Positions 39,335 to 50,787 of a DNA stretch of 64,000 bases are shown in pieces. The DNA comes from Roseovarius lutimaris. GTDB lineage: Bacteria; Pseudomonadota; Alphaproteobacteria; Rhodobacterales; Rhodobacteraceae. Position 1 is the first letter of the stretch. Each line of letters starts with the position of its first letter. The translations under genes and the position numbers were made by a program. The DNA lies in contig NZ_FOVP01000016.1 in the NCBI RefSeq assembly GCF_900115165.1, forward strand, positions 1-64,000. Reading direction: 5' to 3'. Below the pieces are notes generated by a model. It was not told where the DNA came from. It made no database searches and was given only the letters and a program-made list of their open reading frames with translations.

Positions 39335-39410
<76 letters not shown>

Positions 39411-42004: not shown

Positions 42005-43348
42005 CTATGTCGACGGCGCACCGATGGGAAGCTGAAGCCGAGCCTCGAACCCATCCGGGCGCCCCGTCGCCGGGGAGTGAAGGCTAAGCCCGGCCCCGGC
42101 ACCGTCGGCGATGGCCTGGACAATCGAAAGGCCAAGACCGCTGCCGTCCGATCCAGTGTTCTGGCCCCGCTCAAAGCGCGCGGTCAGGCGCGCCAAGGTT
42201 TCGGGCGCAAGGGCGGGACCCTCGTTGATCACCTGCAAAACGCCGTCTGCCGTCAGCGCGACCCGCACCGGGGCCTCGTCGCGACCATGGCGCAGGGCGT
42301 TTTCGACAAGGTTGCGCAGAACGATGGCAAAGGCATCCGGGTCGATATTGGAGAGCACCGGCCTGTCGGAAGTCTCGGCCAGAATCCGACCGGCCCCGAC
42401 GACCCGTTCAAAATCGGACAGCGCAAGGCGCAGCACCGGGCGCAGGTCGGTGACCGTGTCAGCGCGCAACCGCCCGCCCTCGGCGCGCGCCAGTTGCATG
42501 AGCTTTTCCGACAGCCGGTTCAGGCGCTTGAGCGCGGTTTCAATCTCGCCTGCCCTCGCCCCTGCGCTCGCGTCCCTTGTTTCGGCCATCAGCCTCTGGG
42601 TCTGGGCAAGGGCGGCGGCAACCGGGGTGCGCAATTCATGGGCCGCATTGGCGGTAAAGCTGCGTTCGGCCTCAAGCGTGCGGCGCAGACGATCCAGAAG
42701 CTGATTGACCGCATCGGCCATTGGCAGAAATTCCTCCGGCAGGCTCTCGTCACCGACATGCGACAGGTCGCGCGCGCCACGGCTTGACAAGACCCCGCTG
42801 AAGTCGCGCACCGGGGCAAGGCTCCGCCGCACGATCAGCAACAGACCGATCAGGCTTAGCGGGATCACCACGACAAGCGGCAGGGCAAGCGCCATCAGGG
42901 TTTCGCGCGCCACCTCGGCGCGGTGCTCAAGCGGCTCGGCCATGGCGATGGTGATCGTACCGCGCAGCGCCGCATCGAAATAAAGCCGATGCGTCGCGGA
43001 TTGGGAAAACCCGACCGCCTCAAAGGGGGGAAAAACCGAGACATCGGCGGAATGCGAACGCAGCAGGATACGGCCCTGATCATCGCGCACGATATAGGTA
43101 AAAAACTCTTCATGCTGGCGCAGGCTTGCGATGCGCTGACTGACACCTTCTTCGTCGCGATCAAGAATGTCCAGAACCGCCAGCGGCAGGATGCGCTGCG
43201 CGGTTTCCTCAAGGGCGGAATCAAACACCTCGTCCATTTCGCCGCGCAGCAGGGTCGCGGTGACAAGAGCGGTGGCAAGCCAGACCAGCGTAAGCCCAAG
43301 CCCAAGCCCAAGCGCCAGTTTGCCTTGCAGAGAGCCCGGCCCTCTCAC
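42005..43348 (-). CDS. sensor histidine kinase of the flavinylation locus
   Basis: The 447-residue kinase has two membrane helices (about residues 11-34 and 153-173) bracketing a periplasmic sensor of about 115 residues, a HAMP linker, a dimerisation/phosphoacceptor domain with His237 in NAAHELRTP, and an ATPase domain (RNLVENALRHG, GLGLSIVQAI). It starts with GTG overlapping the response regulator's TGA (GTGA). Its sensor domain has no recognisable ligand fold. It belongs to the QseC/TctE-like group that accompanies PepSY and iron- or redox-related genes. Confidence 0.93.
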   Translation of the reverse strand: MRGPGSLQGKLALGLGLGLTLVWLATALVTATLLRGEMDEVFDSALEETAQRILPLAVLDILDRDEEGVSQRIASLRQHEEFFTYIVRDDQGRILLRSHSADVSVFPPFEAVGFSQSATHRLYFDAALRGTITIAMAEPLEHRAEVARETLMALALPLVVVIPLSLIGLLLIVRRSLAPVRDFSGVLSSRGARDLSHVGDESLPEEFLPMADAVNQLLDRLRRTLEAERSFTANAAHELRTPVAAALAQTQRLMAETRDASAGARAGEIETALKRLNRLSEKLMQLARAEGGRLRADTVTDLRPVLRLALSDFERVVGAGRILAETSDRPVLSNIDPDAFAIVLRNLVENALRHGRDEAPVRVALTADGVLQVINEGPALAPETLARLTARFERGQNTGSDGSGLGLSIVQAIADGAGAGLSLHSPATGRPDGFEARLQLPIGAPST

Positions 43349-44004
43349 GCCGCGCCCAGCCGATAGCCTAGCCCGCGTACCGTCTCGATCCGCTCGCGGC
43401 CCAGCTTTTTGCGCAACCGGCTGACGTAGACCTCGATCGCGTTGCTCTCGATCTCGGTCTCGAACGAATAAAGCCGCTCTTCGAGCTGCGCCTTTGACAA
43501 AAGCTGACCGGGGCGCTGAACGAAGGCCTCAAACAGCACCCATTCGCGCGCGGTCAGGGCCACGGGCTTGCCCGCGCGACGCACCGATTTGGCGGCAAGG
43601 TCGATCTCGAGATCGCCCAGAGTCACCAGCGGATTGGGATTGCCGGAATAGCGCCGTGCCACCGCCCCGACCCGCGCCGAAAGCTCCGAGAGATCAAACG
43701 GCTTGACCATGTAATCATCGGCCCCCGCATTCAGCCCCTCGATCCGGTCGCTGATCTGATCGAGCGCGGTCAGGATGATCACCGGCGTCGCCTCCCCGCG
43801 CCCCCGCAGCGCGCGCAGGAACGGCTGACCGCGCCCATCGGGCAGCATCAGATCAAGCAGGATAAGGTCATAGGCGGCCACATCAAGGTATTCGCCGGCT
43901 TCATCAAGCCGCGTCGCCCAGTCGGTGGAATGGCCATCAGCCGTGATCTGGTCGCGCACCGCCGCCCCCAGAACCCTGTCATCCTCGATCAGCAGCACGC
44001 GCAT
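43345..44004 (-). CDS. OmpR-family response regulator of the flavinylation locus
   Basis: The 219-residue regulator has a receiver domain with the phosphorylation site Asp51 (LILLDLMLPDG) and an OmpR/PhoB winged helix (EVYVSRLRKKLG, TVRGLGYRL). It is transcribed first, and the kinase overlaps its end. It diverges from the PepSY gene with a 147-base intergenic region that contains CTGAC-N6-CTGAC, the direct-repeat geometry bound by such regulators. Confidence 0.95.
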   Translation of the reverse strand: MRVLLIEDDRVLGAAVRDQITADGHSTDWATRLDEAGEYLDVAAYDLILLDLMLPDGRGQPFLRALRGRGEATPVIILTALDQISDRIEGLNAGADDYMVKPFDLSELSARVGAVARRYSGNPNPLVTLGDLEIDLAAKSVRRAGKPVALTAREWVLFEAFVQRPGQLLSKAQLEERLYSFETEIESNAIEVYVSRLRKKLGRERIETVRGLGYRLGAA

Positions 44005-44053
44005 CGCATTTCCCGTCCGGTTTCAATTTTCGCCCGTTCTATCACCCGCGAAG

Positions 44054-44069
44054 CTGACGCGGACCTGAC
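44054..44069 (+). promoter_or_regulatory. candidate response-regulator box, PepSY promoter
   Basis: CTGAC (44054-44058) is repeated at 44065-44069 with an 11-base period, the spacing recognised by tandem OmpR/PhoB-type winged helices. It begins 98 bases before the PepSY start codon and lies in the divergent region shared with the response-regulator gene. A near-identical box precedes the DUF2271 gene. Confidence 0.55.
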
Positions 44070-44151
44070 ACAGAAAAATTGCGGGCTTCAGATTCAAGTC
44101 AGCATAGCGCGCAATAAAGCCCCATCACCAGCAATCTCAGGAGATGGGAAA

Positions 44152-44541
44152 ATGAAAAAATATCTGATCGCAACGACATTTCTGGCCGGGATCGGCGCCG
44201 CAGGGTTTGCATTGGCCGATGACGACGACTGCAACGTGGCAATGTCCAACTGGCAGCCCCGCGAGGCGGTCAAGGCGATGGCCGAGGCCAAAGGCTGGAG
44301 CGTGCGCCGCATCAAGACCGACGACGGCTGTTACGAAATCGACGGGCGCGATGCCCAGGGCCGCGAGATCGAGGTCAAGGTCGACCCCGGCACGCTCGCC
44401 ATCGTCGAGATGGAATATGAGGACGACGATGACGACGACGATTACGGCAAGTCGGGCAGGAAAGCCGCCCCCGTCGGCACCCTCGCCCCGCCGGATAATG
44501 GCCTGTTCACCCCCGGCAGCAAGCCGGTGGTCAAACAGTAA
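44152..44541 (+). CDS. periplasmic PepSY-like protein with Asp-rich segment
   Basis: The 129-residue protein has a Sec signal (KKYLIATTFLAGIGAAGFALA) and one PepSY-type domain (PREAVKAMAEAKGWSVRRIK, YEIDGRDAQGREIEVKVDP). Two Cys (in DDDDCNV and DDGCYEI) may form a disulfide. A run of seven Asp after Glu (about residues 94-101) and an Asp cluster at the mature N-terminus suggest cation binding. AGGAGA precedes the ATG. It heads the cluster divergent from a two-component system and probably supplies or senses a metal or redox ligand. Confidence 0.85.
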   Translation: MKKYLIATTFLAGIGAAGFALADDDDCNVAMSNWQPREAVKAMAEAKGWSVRRIKTDDGCYEIDGRDAQGREIEVKVDPGTLAIVEMEYEDDDDDDDYGKSGRKAAPVGTLAPPDNGLFTPGSKPVVKQ

Positions 44542-44562
44542 ACCGCAGGTTTGACACCCAAG

Positions 44563-44578
44563 CTGACGGCAGGCTGAA
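44563..44578 (+). promoter_or_regulatory. candidate response-regulator box, DUF2271 promoter
   Basis: CTGAC (44563-44567) and CTGAA (44574-44578) have the same 11-base period and, including flanks (AAGCTGACG), the same sequence as the box at 44054. It begins 99 bases before the DUF2271 start codon, against 98 bases in the other promoter. This indicates a second transcription start inside the cluster under the same regulator. Confidence 0.5.
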
Positions 44579-44661
44579 GCAATTTTCCCAATCCGGTCAG
44601 CCACGCTTCAGCCGGGCCCGTCATACAGGGGCCAATCAAGACAACACCAGGAGATGACACC

Positions 44662-45126
44662 ATGAAAACCCTGCTTTGTGCGCTTGCCCTGAGCACGGCG
44701 CTGAGCGGCCCGGCCTTGGCCGCGCCGGTCACTTTTACCACCAACCTGTCCAACTATGGCGGCGATGGCGCCTATCTTGCGCTTTATGTCACCGACGCCA
44801 GCGGCGCCTATATGGGCAGCCTCTGGATGGCGGGCGGCAAAGCGAAATATTACACGCATCTTACCGACTGGCATCGCGCCACCGGCGGCGATACCGCCGA
44901 GATCAACGGCATCACCGGTGCCAGCGTCGGCGCGGGGCGACAGCTCAATATCACGCTGGATCTGTCGGATGCCCTGTTTGACGCGGGCTATGAGCTTCAT
45001 ATCGACGCCGCTGTCGAGGATATGCGCGACAGCCCCTCCGAGGTGGTCGTTCCGCTTACCCGCGCCGGGGCCAACACCCCCGTCAAAGGGCGTCGTTATA
45101 TCCGTGATTTCACCTACGGCATGTAA
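44662..45126 (+). CDS. DUF2271 periplasmic protein, predicted FMN acceptor
   Basis: The 154-residue protein has a clear Sec signal (TLLCALALSTALSGPALA) and a DUF2271 domain (LYVTDASGAYMGSLWMAGGK, YYTHLTDWHRATGG, RRYIRDFTYGM). The segment NGITGAS (82-88) resembles the [ST]-G-A-[ST] motif that ApbE enzymes flavinylate in NqrC-type FMN-binding proteins; Ser88 would be the acceptor. AGGAG precedes the ATG. Its neighbours, a PepSY-TM flavoreductase and an ApbE transferase, support a role as the periplasmic electron carrier of the system. Flavinylation is an inference. Confidence 0.85.
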   Translation: MKTLLCALALSTALSGPALAAPVTFTTNLSNYGGDGAYLALYVTDASGAYMGSLWMAGGKAKYYTHLTDWHRATGGDTAEINGITGASVGAGRQLNITLDLSDALFDAGYELHIDAAVEDMRDSPSEVVVPLTRAGANTPVKGRRYIRDFTYGM

Positions 45127-45151
45127 GCCAAGAAGACGAAAGGCCCCTGCC

Positions 45152-47365
45152 ATGTTGCGTAACCTGCACAAAATTCCCGGTCTGATCGCGGCAATCCTGA
45201 TCGTGGTTATCACACTGAGCGGCGCGGTTCTTTCGGTCCTGCCCGCCTGGGAGGTCGTGGCAGAGGTCCCGGCCCGGCCCGGGGCCGGCCTGAGCGTCGC
45301 GACGCTGGCCGACCGGATCGCGATCACCTATCCCGGCGTTGAACAGATCAAGCGCTCGCCCTCGGGCAAGATCATCGCGTTTTACTTTGACGGCGGACAG
45401 CCCGGCGCGGTGGTGATTGATCCCGCAACCGGCGTTGGCGTTGCAGACGCCCAACGCTCAGCCTTTGCACGCTGGATGACCAATCTGCACCGCTCGCTGT
45501 TTCTGGATGACGCCGGTCGGTGGGCCGTTGCGGCCGGGGCGGCGTCCCTTTTGATGCTGTCGGTGTCGGGCCTGATGCTGACGGCGCGGCGCGTGGGCGG
45601 CTGGCGGCATTTCTTTTCCCGCTTGCGTGGCCCGCTGACCGGTCGGCTTCATGTCGAGGTGGCACGGTTTAGCGTTGCCGGGCTGTTGCTCTCGTCCATC
45701 ACCGCGCTTTTCATGACCGCAAGCACCTTTGGCCTTATCCCCGAGGCGGAAAATCCCCCCACCTTTCCCCGCGCGGTCAGCGAACAGACCGGCGCCATTC
45801 CCGGCACCATGGCGATGCTGCGCGACACCCCCGTCAGTGCGCTGCGCGAATTGACCTATCCCTACCCGGATGATCCCACGGATGTGTTCAAGCTCACTAC
45901 CGATGTCGGCGAGGGCTATATTGACCAGGGCACCGGCGAGGTGTTGATCTGGGCCGATGCGGGCCTCTGGCAGCGGGTGAATGAGACGATCTATATGTTG
46001 CATACCGGGCAAGGCGCGGCTTTGCTTGGGGTGGTGCTTGGCCTGATGGCGCTTGGCGCGCCGGTCATGGCGATCACCGGCGCGATGCTCTGGCTGCAAT
46101 CGCGCCGCGCGCGCCCCCGGATCAAGGGCAACACCCCCGCCGGTCAGGCCGACACCATCGTTCTGGTCGGCAGCGAGGGCGGCAGCACCTGGGGCTTTGC
46201 CGCGACGCTTCACCGCGCGCTTCGCGAGGCCGGGCACACCGTTCACACCGGCGCAATGTCGGAGTTTCGCCCCGAGCGCTATGCCTGCGCGGCGCAGGTG
46301 ATCGTGCTCGCCGCCACATATGGCGATGGTGCGGCACCGGCCTCGGCCAAGGGGTTTCTTGACCGCCTTGCCACGCTGAAAGCAGCGCCCGGCCTGTCTA
46401 TTGCCGTGCTTGGCTTTGGCGACCGTCAGTTCCCGCAATTCTGCGCCTATGGCGCCGAGGTGGCGCGCGTGGCCGACGAAAACGGCTGGCCCTCGCTTTT
46501 GCCGATGGGCACGGTTGACCGCCAATCGCCGCAGGAATTCGCCCGCTGGGGCCACGCCCTGGGCGAGGCGCTTGGCCATCCGCTTGAGCTATTGCATAGC
46601 CCGGTGATCCCGCAAACTCAGGCGCTTACACTCATTTCGCGCCGCGATTATGGCTCTGACATGCAGACCCCTTCGGCGATCCTGCGCTTTGCCTTGCCCA
46701 AAACCGGACGGTTTGGGCGGCTGGTGGGGCGCGGCTTTGCCAGATTCTCGGCGGGTGACCTTTTGGGGATTATCCCCGAGGGTGCCGCGGTGCCACGGTT
46801 CTATTCGCTGGCCTCAGGGCAGGCCGACGGGTTTATCGAAATCTGCGTCAGCCGCCACCCCGGCGGCCTGTGCTCGGGGCAGCTTTTGTCGCTCACCCCC
46901 GGCGACAGCGTTCAGGGATTTCTGCGCCGCAACCCCGATTTTCGCCCCCAGGCGAATGCCAGGCCGGTGATCCTGATCGGGGCCGGCACCGGGATCGGGC
47001 CGCTGGCCGGGTTTGCACGGGCCAATCGGCCGGGCCGCGAGATGCACCTCTATTACGGCGCCCGTCACCCCGACAGCGACCTGTTTTATGGCGAGGAACT
47101 ACAGGGCTGGCAGGCCGATGGGCGGCTTGCCTCGGTAACAGCGGCGTTTTCGCGCACCGACACGCGGACCTATGTGCAGGACGCCCTGCGCAATGATGCC
47201 ACCCGGATTGCCCGGCTGATCAGTGAGGGCGCGCAGGTTCTGGTCTGCGGTGGCCGCGACATGGCCGCCGGCGTGGCCGAAGCCCTGAGCGAAATCCTAG
47301 CCCCTGCCGGATTGACACCGGCCCTGCTGAAAGCCGAGGGACAGTATGTTGAAGACACCTACTGA
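45152..47365 (+). CDS. PepSY-TM / flavodoxin / NAD(P)H-flavoreductase fusion
   Basis: The 737-residue protein joins three modules. Residues 1-320 are a PepSY-TM region with four helices (about 11-33, 125-147, 172-194, 290-315) and conserved His residues (7, 113, 167, 284) that could bind haem. Residues 335-480 are a flavodoxin domain (TIVLVGSEGGSTWGFA, AATYGDG, GFGDRQF). Residues 500-737 are a ferredoxin-NADP reductase domain with RFYSLAS for FAD and LIGAGTGIGPLAGF plus YYGARHPDSD for NAD(P)H. The soluble modules face the cytoplasm, so it can carry electrons from NAD(P)H across the membrane. Its end overlaps apbE by 20 bases. Confidence 0.88.
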   Translation: MLRNLHKIPGLIAAILIVVITLSGAVLSVLPAWEVVAEVPARPGAGLSVATLADRIAITYPGVEQIKRSPSGKIIAFYFDGGQPGAVVIDPATGVGVADAQRSAFARWMTNLHRSLFLDDAGRWAVAAGAASLLMLSVSGLMLTARRVGGWRHFFSRLRGPLTGRLHVEVARFSVAGLLLSSITALFMTASTFGLIPEAENPPTFPRAVSEQTGAIPGTMAMLRDTPVSALRELTYPYPDDPTDVFKLTTDVGEGYIDQGTGEVLIWADAGLWQRVNETIYMLHTGQGAALLGVVLGLMALGAPVMAITGAMLWLQSRRARPRIKGNTPAGQADTIVLVGSEGGSTWGFAATLHRALREAGHTVHTGAMSEFRPERYACAAQVIVLAATYGDGAAPASAKGFLDRLATLKAAPGLSIAVLGFGDRQFPQFCAYGAEVARVADENGWPSLLPMGTVDRQSPQEFARWGHALGEALGHPLELLHSPVIPQTQALTLISRRDYGSDMQTPSAILRFALPKTGRFGRLVGRGFARFSAGDLLGIIPEGAAVPRFYSLASGQADGFIEICVSRHPGGLCSGQLLSLTPGDSVQGFLRRNPDFRPQANARPVILIGAGTGIGPLAGFARANRPGREMHLYYGARHPDSDLFYGEELQGWQADGRLASVTAAFSRTDTRTYVQDALRNDATRIARLISEGAQVLVCGGRDMAAGVAEALSEILAPAGLTPALLKAEGQYVEDTY

Positions 47366-48281
47366 ACTGACCCGCCACACCCTAAGCGGGCCGACCATGG
47401 GCACCCGCTGGTCGGCGCAGTTTCATGCCCACGAGGCGCGCGACCGTGCCCCGATTGAGGCGGCACTGGCCGCAAGCGTCGCCTTGGTGAACCAACAGAT
47501 GTCGACCTGGAAACCCGACAGCGACCTGATGCGGCTTAACCGCGCGCCGGTCGGCGAATGGGTCGCGGTGCCGCGCGAATTGAGGACGGTCCTGATGCGC
47601 GCGGTTGAAATCGGGCGCTTCTCAGAAGGGGCATTCGATATCGCCATGGGCGACGCGGTCGCCGCCTGGGGGTTTGGGGCGCAAGAGCATGACACCGACG
47701 CGATGCGTCGCGCCCTGATTCAGCCCCGACCACAAGCGCATGAGGCGCTTGAGCTTGACCACGCGACGCAACGGGTGCGCAAATGCGCCCCCCTCACACT
47801 TGACCTTTCGGGCATCGCCAAGGGCTTTGGCGTCGATCAGATGGTTGCGGTGCTCGCCCGGTTCGGCATCGAACATGCGCTTGTCGGTCTTGATGGCGAA
47901 TTGCGCGCCATCGGTCAGCGCCCCGAGGGCAAACCATGGACGGTGGCGCTTGAAAAACCCGATTACGAGGCGCGCGCGCCGCTCTCGATCCTTGAGCTGC
48001 GCGACAGCGCCCTCGCCACATCCGGGGATTATCGCCATTGGGTCGACCTTGGCACGCAGCGTCTTTCGCATACAATGGACCCGTCGCGCGGCGGGCCTGT
48101 GCTGGGGGCGGCGGCCTCGGTCACGGTGCTGGCCGAGACCTGCATGGACGCCGATGCCTGGGCGACCGCCTTCATGGTGATGGGCAAGGAACGGGCCAAG
48201 TCTCTGGCCCGGAACCACGGGTTAAGCGCCATTTTCGTTGAACGCGACGGCGCGACATTTCGCCAGACCCATATCGGCTAG
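47346..48281 (+). CDS. apbE: ApbE-type FAD:protein FMN transferase
   Basis: The 311-residue protein has the ApbE motifs GPTMGTRWSAQF, DLSGIAKGFGVDQ, ATSGDYRHW, SHTMDPSRGGPV and the metal-site CMDADAWATAFMVMG. It transfers FMN from FAD to a Thr or Ser of a target protein, most likely the DUF2271 protein encoded 2.2 kb upstream. Unusually there is no signal peptide or lipobox: the domain begins within 20 residues of the start. ApbE proteins serving periplasmic targets are normally exported. GAGGGACAG precedes the ATG inside the preceding gene. Confidence 0.93.
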   Translation: MLKTPTELTRHTLSGPTMGTRWSAQFHAHEARDRAPIEAALAASVALVNQQMSTWKPDSDLMRLNRAPVGEWVAVPRELRTVLMRAVEIGRFSEGAFDIAMGDAVAAWGFGAQEHDTDAMRRALIQPRPQAHEALELDHATQRVRKCAPLTLDLSGIAKGFGVDQMVAVLARFGIEHALVGLDGELRAIGQRPEGKPWTVALEKPDYEARAPLSILELRDSALATSGDYRHWVDLGTQRLSHTMDPSRGGPVLGAAASVTVLAETCMDADAWATAFMVMGKERAKSLARNHGLSAIFVERDGATFRQTHIG

Positions 48282-50712: not shown

Positions 50713-50787
50713 GGGCGATTAGCTCAGTGGTAGAGCACTTCGTTGACATCGAAGGGGTCACAAGTTCGAACCTTGTATCGCCCACCA
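50713..50787 (+). tRNA. tRNA-Val (anticodon GAC)
   Basis: The 75-nucleotide cloverleaf has acceptor GGGCGAT/ATCGCCC, D-arm AGCTCAGTGGTAGAGC, anticodon stem CTTCG/CGAAG around TTGACAT (anticodon GAC), T-arm with GTTCGAACC and an encoded CCA. Confidence 0.97.

Follow-up and report, generated by a model that had tools for sequence, protein, structure and literature searches.

A predicted, self-contained electron-export cassette with a near-private candidate regulatory box in Roseovarius lutimaris and its relatives

How, and onto what, could a bacterium pass electrons out of its cytosol with the products of one compact gene cluster? The question is raised by six genes at positions 42005 to 48281 of a 64,000-nucleotide stretch of the Roseovarius lutimaris genome (RefSeq assembly GCF_900115165.1, contig NZ_FOVP01000016.1, positions 1 to 64,000; the whole stretch is called the window below). 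The original prediction, made from the letters alone, described them as an ApbE-dependent flavinylated trans-membrane electron-transfer system with its own two-component regulator. We consider it rather likely that the genes form a self-contained, inducible electron-export cassette, by which a metal, most likely Fe(III), is reduced outside the inner membrane.

The six genes proved to be as first described, with correct coordinates and Pfam domains to back each of them. Two lie on the minus strand: a sensor histidine kinase of 447 residues (42005-43348; HisKA PF00512, HATPase PF02518) and an OmpR/PmrA-type response regulator of 219 residues (43345-44004; PF00072, PF00486). Divergent from this pair, on the plus strand, are a small secreted PepSY_2 protein of 129 residues (44152-44541; PF13670, E 2.7e-27) and a DUF2271 protein of 154 residues, the predicted flavinylated electron carrier (44662-45126; PF10029, E 5.1e-34), both with signal-like N-termini. 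They are followed by a 737-residue fusion of PepSY_TM, flavodoxin and NAD-binding domains (45152-47365; PF03929, 5.3e-31; PF00258, 4.4e-13; PF00175, 3.1e-12) and a 311-residue ApbE flavin mononucleotide (FMN) transferase (47346-48281; PF02424, 2e-77), whose reading frame overlaps that of the fusion by 20 bp. The PepSY_TM and DUF2271 domains each have one match in the R. lutimaris genome, both at this locus, and a second, more distant ApbE match with a twin-arginine-like start is found elsewhere (L002, G000:C38:110441-111187).

Related loci were gathered by a search for the fusion in 198 family genomes, a scan of named genomes and the fetching of flanking sequence. This yielded 121 loci including the window, or 105 distinct ones once loci with identical first 300 residues of the fusion were collapsed; the named-genome scan kept the best 80 of 454 confirmed loci and under-samples distant relatives. 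The DUF2271 gene precedes the fusion gene in all 105, apbE follows it in 98 of the 99 loci with enough downstream sequence, and 91 of the 96 loci with 4.5 kb or more of upstream sequence have the divergent kinase-regulator pair. A PepSY_2-like gene accompanies 90 of 99. The gene-order comparison that had been called for therefore showed the arrangement to be kept across relatives, and this conserved order ruled out chance clustering. Pairwise correlations between the protein distances of kinase, regulator, DUF2271, fusion and ApbE ranged from 0.87 to 0.94 (r, 93 loci). Thus, the genes of the cassette travel together. Within the 80 best loci of the scan, the hosts include Rhodobacterales, Mesorhizobium, Hoeflea, Shinella, Rhizobium, Kaistia, Parvibaculum and others, and among named relatives Roseovarius gaetbuli and R. 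marisflavi come nearest, with 88% identity in the fusion.

The fusion is the predicted membrane wire. Its residues 1-327 comprise a four-helix PepSY_TM domain, and residues 328-737 a flavodoxin followed by a reductase domain for flavin adenine dinucleotide (FAD) and NAD(P)H. The membrane part was folded and searched apart from the full-length protein because the diflavin half had filled the full-length result list; its predicted structure has the fold of FoxB. In the predicted fold of residues 328-737 the flavodoxin and FAD/NAD(P)H domains take the CPR arrangement, as in a diflavin reductase. Four histidines, H6, H113, H167 and H284, are invariant in 24 sequences, and a profile alignment in which single segments score weakly placed H6, H113 and H284 opposite histidines of FoxB. 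This alignment did not pair H167 with a FoxB histidine; the LHR of the third FoxB helix matched the H6 motif instead. The fusion probably carries two haems. It would accept electrons from cytosolic NAD(P)H and pass them through FAD and FMN to an inner haem (H6/H167), then to an outer haem (H113/H284) and on to FMN bound at TGAS in the DUF2271 protein of the periplasm; this carrier in turn would reduce a metal complex, most likely of Fe(III). The FoxB match, the four invariant histidines and the TGAS motif support the trans-membrane transfer from NAD(P)H to DUF2271 that had been proposed.

The TGAS flavinylation motif occupies residues 85-88 of the DUF2271 protein (44914-44925, plus strand). 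DUF2271 proteins are described as being flavinylated by ApbE at [S/T]GA[S/T] (PMC8238504), and the pattern [ST]GA[ST] was present in 104 of the 105 DUF2271 proteins (the exception is locus L042). The signal peptide was assessed by reading the sequence together with hydrophobicity, which reached at least 1.6 at the N-terminus in 87 of 105 proteins, with a median of 1.8. A search of the PDB with the DUF2271 sequence returned nothing convincing.

The transferase itself appears to stay inside. Its identity is clear (PF02424, 260.8 bits versus a cut-off of 25.6), and the conserved motifs were located by alignment to 6nxi. The window apbE frame is closed five codons ahead of the start, and the median distance between the previous stop and the conserved MGT motif is 22 codons. 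Neither a signal peptide nor a lipobox was found in any of 103 loci, 93 of them computed and 10, which lack the exact MGT pattern, read by eye. None of the 93 computed N-termini reaches 1.6 on the 12-residue hydrophobicity scale, and signal-bearing controls score 1.89-3.26 (E. coli Ftp, three non-cassette ApbEs of cassette genomes and the second ApbE of R. lutimaris; for the last and for G082 the scored open frame is longer than the protein's own N-terminus). A Spirosoma ApbE was left out of this control set because its motif match fell at the wrong position. One plasmid member each from Cupriavidus, Paraburkholderia, Xanthobacter and Rhizobium likewise lacks a signal.

The claim of ApbE-dependent flavinylation thus holds in part: the TGAS motif and the conserved adjacency speak for it, whereas a location outside the membrane is at odds with a transferase that lacks a signal in 103 of 103 loci. 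Because it has no signal peptide, we prefer the reading that ApbE would act on DUF2271 in the cytosol; if DUF2271 is flavinylated by it there, FMN is probably attached before export. With FMN attached ahead of Sec transport, FAD export would not be needed for the electron chain of the cassette. A fuller version, in which cytosolic ApbE loads the DUF2271 preprotein before Sec and the whole chain is a mobile unit whose regulator targets only that unit, is put forward tentatively. Cytosolic ApbEs exist, for cytosolic targets. Against modification before export stands a study, quoted in a review, in which a periplasmic location proved essential for the function of an ApbE in vivo; a truncated, cytosolic ApbE failed to replace a periplasmic one (PMC12052999). 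The second ApbE of R. lutimaris, given its twin-arginine-like start, could also act outside. Alternatives are that ApbE leaves the cytosol by an unusual route, that a second ApbE helps in genomes that have one, or that DUF2271 is not flavinylated at all.

The most developed of these, which we regard as somewhat unlikely, is that another, exported ApbE modifies DUF2271, and that the local enzyme either serves a cytosolic target or is exported without a signal. The missing signal peptide and the second ApbE of R. lutimaris are in its favor, as is the presence of two or more ApbE genes in 27 of the 30 cassette genomes counted (out of 38 with a full-length fusion); a diverged cassette on a Salmonella plasmid has no ApbE match within 30 kb. 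Yet three of the 30 genomes have no ApbE other than the local one (G003, on one contig; G103; G177), apbE keeps its place behind the fusion, and [ST]GA[ST] occurs only in DUF2271 among ten window proteins checked. Those three genomes make the place of flavinylation decidable. A signal-less ApbE next to an exported substrate calls into question the assumption that such carriers are always flavinylated outside.

Is the cassette also switched by its own regulator? The divergent regions share an element of two direct repeats, each with 11-bp spacing, that face each other, with the consensus CTGAM-N6-CTGAM-N17/18-KTCAG-N6-KTCAG. The window has two such candidate boxes, neither assigned to a strand: box 1 in the divergent promoter region (44054-44102; CTGAC-N6-CTGAC-N17-TTCAG-N6-GTCAG) and box 2 directly upstream of the DUF2271, fusion and ApbE genes (44563-44611). 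Among 95 divergent regions, the first arm was found in 78, the second in 85 and the exact whole box in 69; the means for regions shuffled to keep base composition only were 0.065, 0.045 and 0, respectively. The 105 loci hold 83 boxes, 69 of them divergent, 10 before DUF2271 (window included) and 4 elsewhere.

The box is almost confined to the cassette. In the 4.28-Mb R. lutimaris genome, the only two matches to the whole pattern with a spacer of 14-38 are boxes 1 and 2, and the reversed pattern has none. In the 198 family genomes (spacer 14-20), 36 boxes were found in 33 genomes, against 0 in the control: in 30 of the 38 genomes with a full-length fusion, in 1 of 2 with a partial one and in 2 of 158 with neither. 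By coordinates, 31 of the 36 lie within 3 kb of a fusion gene, and 35 adjoin cassette genes. Four of the five remaining boxes (L168, L169, L170 and L171) adjoin homologous kinase, regulator and PepSY_2 genes. L168 (G084:C56) and L169 (G087:C123), with the order kinase-regulator-box-PepSY_2 and no fusion, are a reduced form of the cassette; L168 adds a b561 gene, an ATPase gene and only a short ApbE-like piece. At L170 and L171 the contig ends near the box. The fifth box (L167, G131:C259:1848-1896) is the only one without any query gene nearby and may be a chance site or an extra member of the regulon.

The near-exclusive location of the box, together with the conserved kinase-regulator pair, makes the claim of an own two-component regulator well supported. 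Some loci depart from this pattern: 26 of the 95 divergent regions have an imperfect box or none, and an exact box is missing from 8 of the 38 genomes whose fusion is full-length. We infer that the phosphorylated regulator binds boxes 1 and 2, as an activator rather than a repressor; it would thereby drive its own gene, the PepSY_2 gene and the DUF2271, fusion and ApbE genes. An operator this close to private makes both regulon and signal directly testable.

The signal that reaches the regulator is suggested by the kinase and its PepSY_2 neighbor. The kinase has a 2CSK_N-like periplasmic domain and a HAMP domain, both below the Pfam cut-offs, and carries the motif R35-x-E37-x-x-E40 directly after the first helix (kept in an alignment of 94 kinases at 88% for R35, 95% for E37 and 87% for E40). 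In BqsS and its relatives, ExxE serves to sense iron (PMC12666569). The nearest paralogue of the kinase in the same genome does not have it. A QseC-like control kinase carries ExxE as well, so the motif is not specific; for this reason we did not accept it as proof of iron sensing and treat it only as a hint. The best NCBIfam match of the regulator is PmrA, below the cut-off of that model, and BasR/PmrA chains are among its closest solved structures.

The original prediction had named an Asp-rich PepSY protein, and the PepSY_2 protein indeed combines its PF13670 domain with an acidic run, EDDDDDDD, at residues 90-97. PF03413 matched it only below the cut-off, and the PDB offered only a weak PepSY match (9vy3, E 0.0045). 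It ends in a conserved C-terminal tail, KAAPVGTLAPPDNGLFTPGSKPVVKQ (44461-44538, plus strand), and a DNA pattern for the tail core, PPxNGLF, occurs once in the genome. The tail consensus, (N)PAPAGTVAPPxNGLFxxGxxPxVxVN, is found on secreted, usually acidic cassette proteins, some without a recognisable PepSY domain; two of the latter had no Pfam match. In relatives, the slot between PepSY_2 and DUF2271 often encodes a small secreted protein that has both an acidic run and the PPxNGLF tail. In the window this slot is empty and the PepSY_2 protein itself bears run and tail. Among 82 proteins chosen by presence of the tail, 73 have an acidic run of at least six residues and 29 a PepSY_2-like part. 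The tail is perhaps a docking peptide. Pairings of PepSY proteins with neighboring two-component genes are known as a module, in which, in Vibrio cholerae, DbfQ makes contact with the kinase DbfS (PMC12714742). The PepSY_2 protein would probably be bound to the kinase on its periplasmic side, and the kinase would sense a metal-related or envelope signal.

What the electrons are for is best judged from the fusion and the variable neighbors. The acceptor would be a metal, with iron the best candidate because of the FoxB likeness, the published iron-linked DUF2271/PepSY operons (PMC8238504) and the VIT genes. The slot between PepSY_2 and DUF2271 holds a cytochrome b561 in 39 of 99 loci, a ferric-reductase-like protein in 12 and neither in 48. 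A P1B-type ATPase gene, a VIT-family gene or both lie within the fetched stretch in 35 of the 105 loci, mostly just downstream; the ATPases have a TPCPL motif, or SPC in two, and on plasmids these neighbors are annotated as VIT family and as heavy-metal or cadmium ATPase. Export or sequestration of metal is the general role of P1B-ATPases and VIT proteins, and for this reason metal stress is a serious rival to iron acquisition.

In that rival account, which is a possible though not the favored one, the electron path is the same but serves tolerance of metal or cation stress rather than nutrition. The kinase would sense excess metal, acidic PepSY_2 and tail proteins would bind metal in the periplasm, the redox chain would reset the oxidation state of that metal, and, in loci that have them, P1B-ATPase and VIT proteins would clear the cytosol. 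The flanking genes and their annotations fit this account, as do the acidic runs of the tail proteins and the spread of near-identical and conjugative copies described below. BqsS, whose locus has PepSY neighbors too, is a sensor of Fe2+, and cells depend on BqsRS in their defence against cationic stress (PMC12714742, PMC12666569, PMC4682146). Together with the general role of the ATPase and VIT proteins, two negatives suit metal stress no less than iron scavenging. In the two gaps, the best Fur match was no better than in shuffled sequence and a TGA-N9-TCA site was absent; and the gene tables of seven proteobacterial plasmid stretches, which are incomplete, list no TonB receptor. On the other side, the window copy has neither an ATPase nor a VIT gene, and the FoxB-like domain and published Caulobacter data indicate acquisition. 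The absence of these two genes from the window copy, and of b561 and ferric-reductase genes, also counts against the favored reading.

A third account, which we judge quite improbable, is repair or redox homeostasis, in which an oxidised protein or a small molecule of the periplasm is the final acceptor and metal binding is secondary. The layout of the cassette resembles that of MsrPQ under HprRS, where a two-component regulator stands beside a haem membrane reductase, and b561 or a ferric-reductase-like protein fills the variable slot in 51 of 99 loci. Against it, of the flanking clusters only those of ATPase and VIT, the two that were annotated, exceed 5 of the 105 loci, and no methionine sulfoxide reductase is listed in the same seven plasmid stretches. 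We retain the reading of metal reduction, with iron the likeliest substrate.

The cassette is often carried by plasmids. Copies from Mesorhizobium and Labrenzia are 99.83% identical over 12.9 kb, and those from Rhizobium and Shinella 99.87% over 14.2 kb. PLSDB contained 94 matching records, 70 typed as conjugative and 38 from Pseudosulfitobacter, with members extending to Cupriavidus, Paraburkholderia and enterobacteria. On the marine conjugative plasmids L157, L158 and L162, a few kilobases separate the cassette from repABC, as though it belonged to a shared backbone region. If our reading is right, one often plasmid-borne cassette encodes every element of a regulated electron route that starts at NAD(P)H and ends in the periplasm: the donor, the wire through the membrane, the carrier, the enzyme that installs the cofactor and the switch.

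Three further observations concern the surroundings. The diverged Salmonella Cubana cassette mentioned above (L160, NC_021819.1, 9528-17045) comprises kinase-regulator, ferric-reductase-like, PepSY, DUF2271, fusion and VIT1/CCC1 genes, on a plasmid that also has mcr-9 and a copper-resistance gene. A Spirosoma oryzicola plasmid (L219, NZ_CP089541.1) has a Bacteroidota DUF2271-PepSY pair near a siderophore-annotated TonB-dependent receptor and an FMN transferase gene; this is a setting of the iron type, but not a member of the cassette family of the window. In the window, the region is flanked by tRNA-Ala (39335-39410) and tRNA-Val (50713-50787), outside the sulfite-exporter-like, DAO, DinB and FGase genes.

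How does the cassette compare with known systems? Its regulatory half is closest to the DbfQRS and BqsRS modules (PMC12714742, PMC12666569, PMC4682146), with which it shares a small secreted PepSY protein beside the kinase-regulator pair, here within four genes of it, and the unspecific ExxE in the periplasmic domain of the kinase; the Pseudomonas BqsRS locus has two small PepSY proteins (PMC12714742). The BqsR operator, TTAAG-N6-TTAAG (PMC4682146), has the same pentamer-N6-pentamer form as the cassette box. The box differs in its pentamers, CTGAM/KTCAG, and in its inverted pair of direct repeats, and it is nearly confined to the cassette, whereas many candidate sites are described for BqsR. 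The mmf cassette of pHB44/pBS64 likewise links a PepSY protein and a two-component system to iron, with no mention of DUF2271 or ApbE in the available excerpts on it. Clusters of SHP and diheme cytochromes with a sensor kinase (PMC2909971) share the two-component system, a cytochrome b, a small periplasmic accessory protein, likened here by description, and in some species divergent operons, but have c-type cytochromes in place of the flavinylated-type carrier.

The membrane part of the fusion shares PepSY-type periplasmic domains between four helices, and four histidines of haem-ligand type, with FoxB (PDB 7abw), HiuB and CrpH (PMC12424826, PMC13038864). These sources give the donor of FoxB as unknown, whereas the cassette fusion has a donor module attached and a flavinylated-type carrier adjacent. 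Residues 328-737 share their flavodoxin and FAD/NAD(P)H domains with CPR, CysJ and the reductase domain of NOS, to which the fusion adds a membrane domain of haem type.

As a whole, the locus belongs to the published PepSY-like class, defined by a PF03929 or PF16357 gene inside a flavinylation-associated cluster, that is, apbE, FMN-binding, DUF2271 or DUF3570 genes within five genes, of which one or more must have a signal peptide (Meheust et al. 2021, PMC8238504); it conforms to this definition, and its DUF2271 protein has [S/T]GA[S/T] as well. The clustering of ApbE, DUF2271 and PepSY genes was therefore already known, as had in part been stated at the outset, and a PepSY_TM protein, a secreted DUF2271 with [S/T]GA[S/T] and ApbE in one cluster are common to both. 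The same source counts a NAD-binding domain on 1077 PepSY-like genes and VIT1 in 167 clusters. It describes DUF4198, TonB and Fur settings, in place of which the cassette has a two-component system, a candidate box and PepSY_2; the cassette also differs in its signal-less ApbE and in a C-terminal half that is a full diflavin reductase. In the titles, abstract openings and literature searched, no two-component system, box or signal-less ApbE was reported for a DUF2271 cassette. Thus, the redox core of PepSY_TM, DUF2271 and ApbE is a known class, and what is new is a candidate operator almost confined to the cassette, a fusion that spans the whole path from donor to haem next to the gene for its carrier, and an ApbE without a signal peptide whose presumed target is exported.

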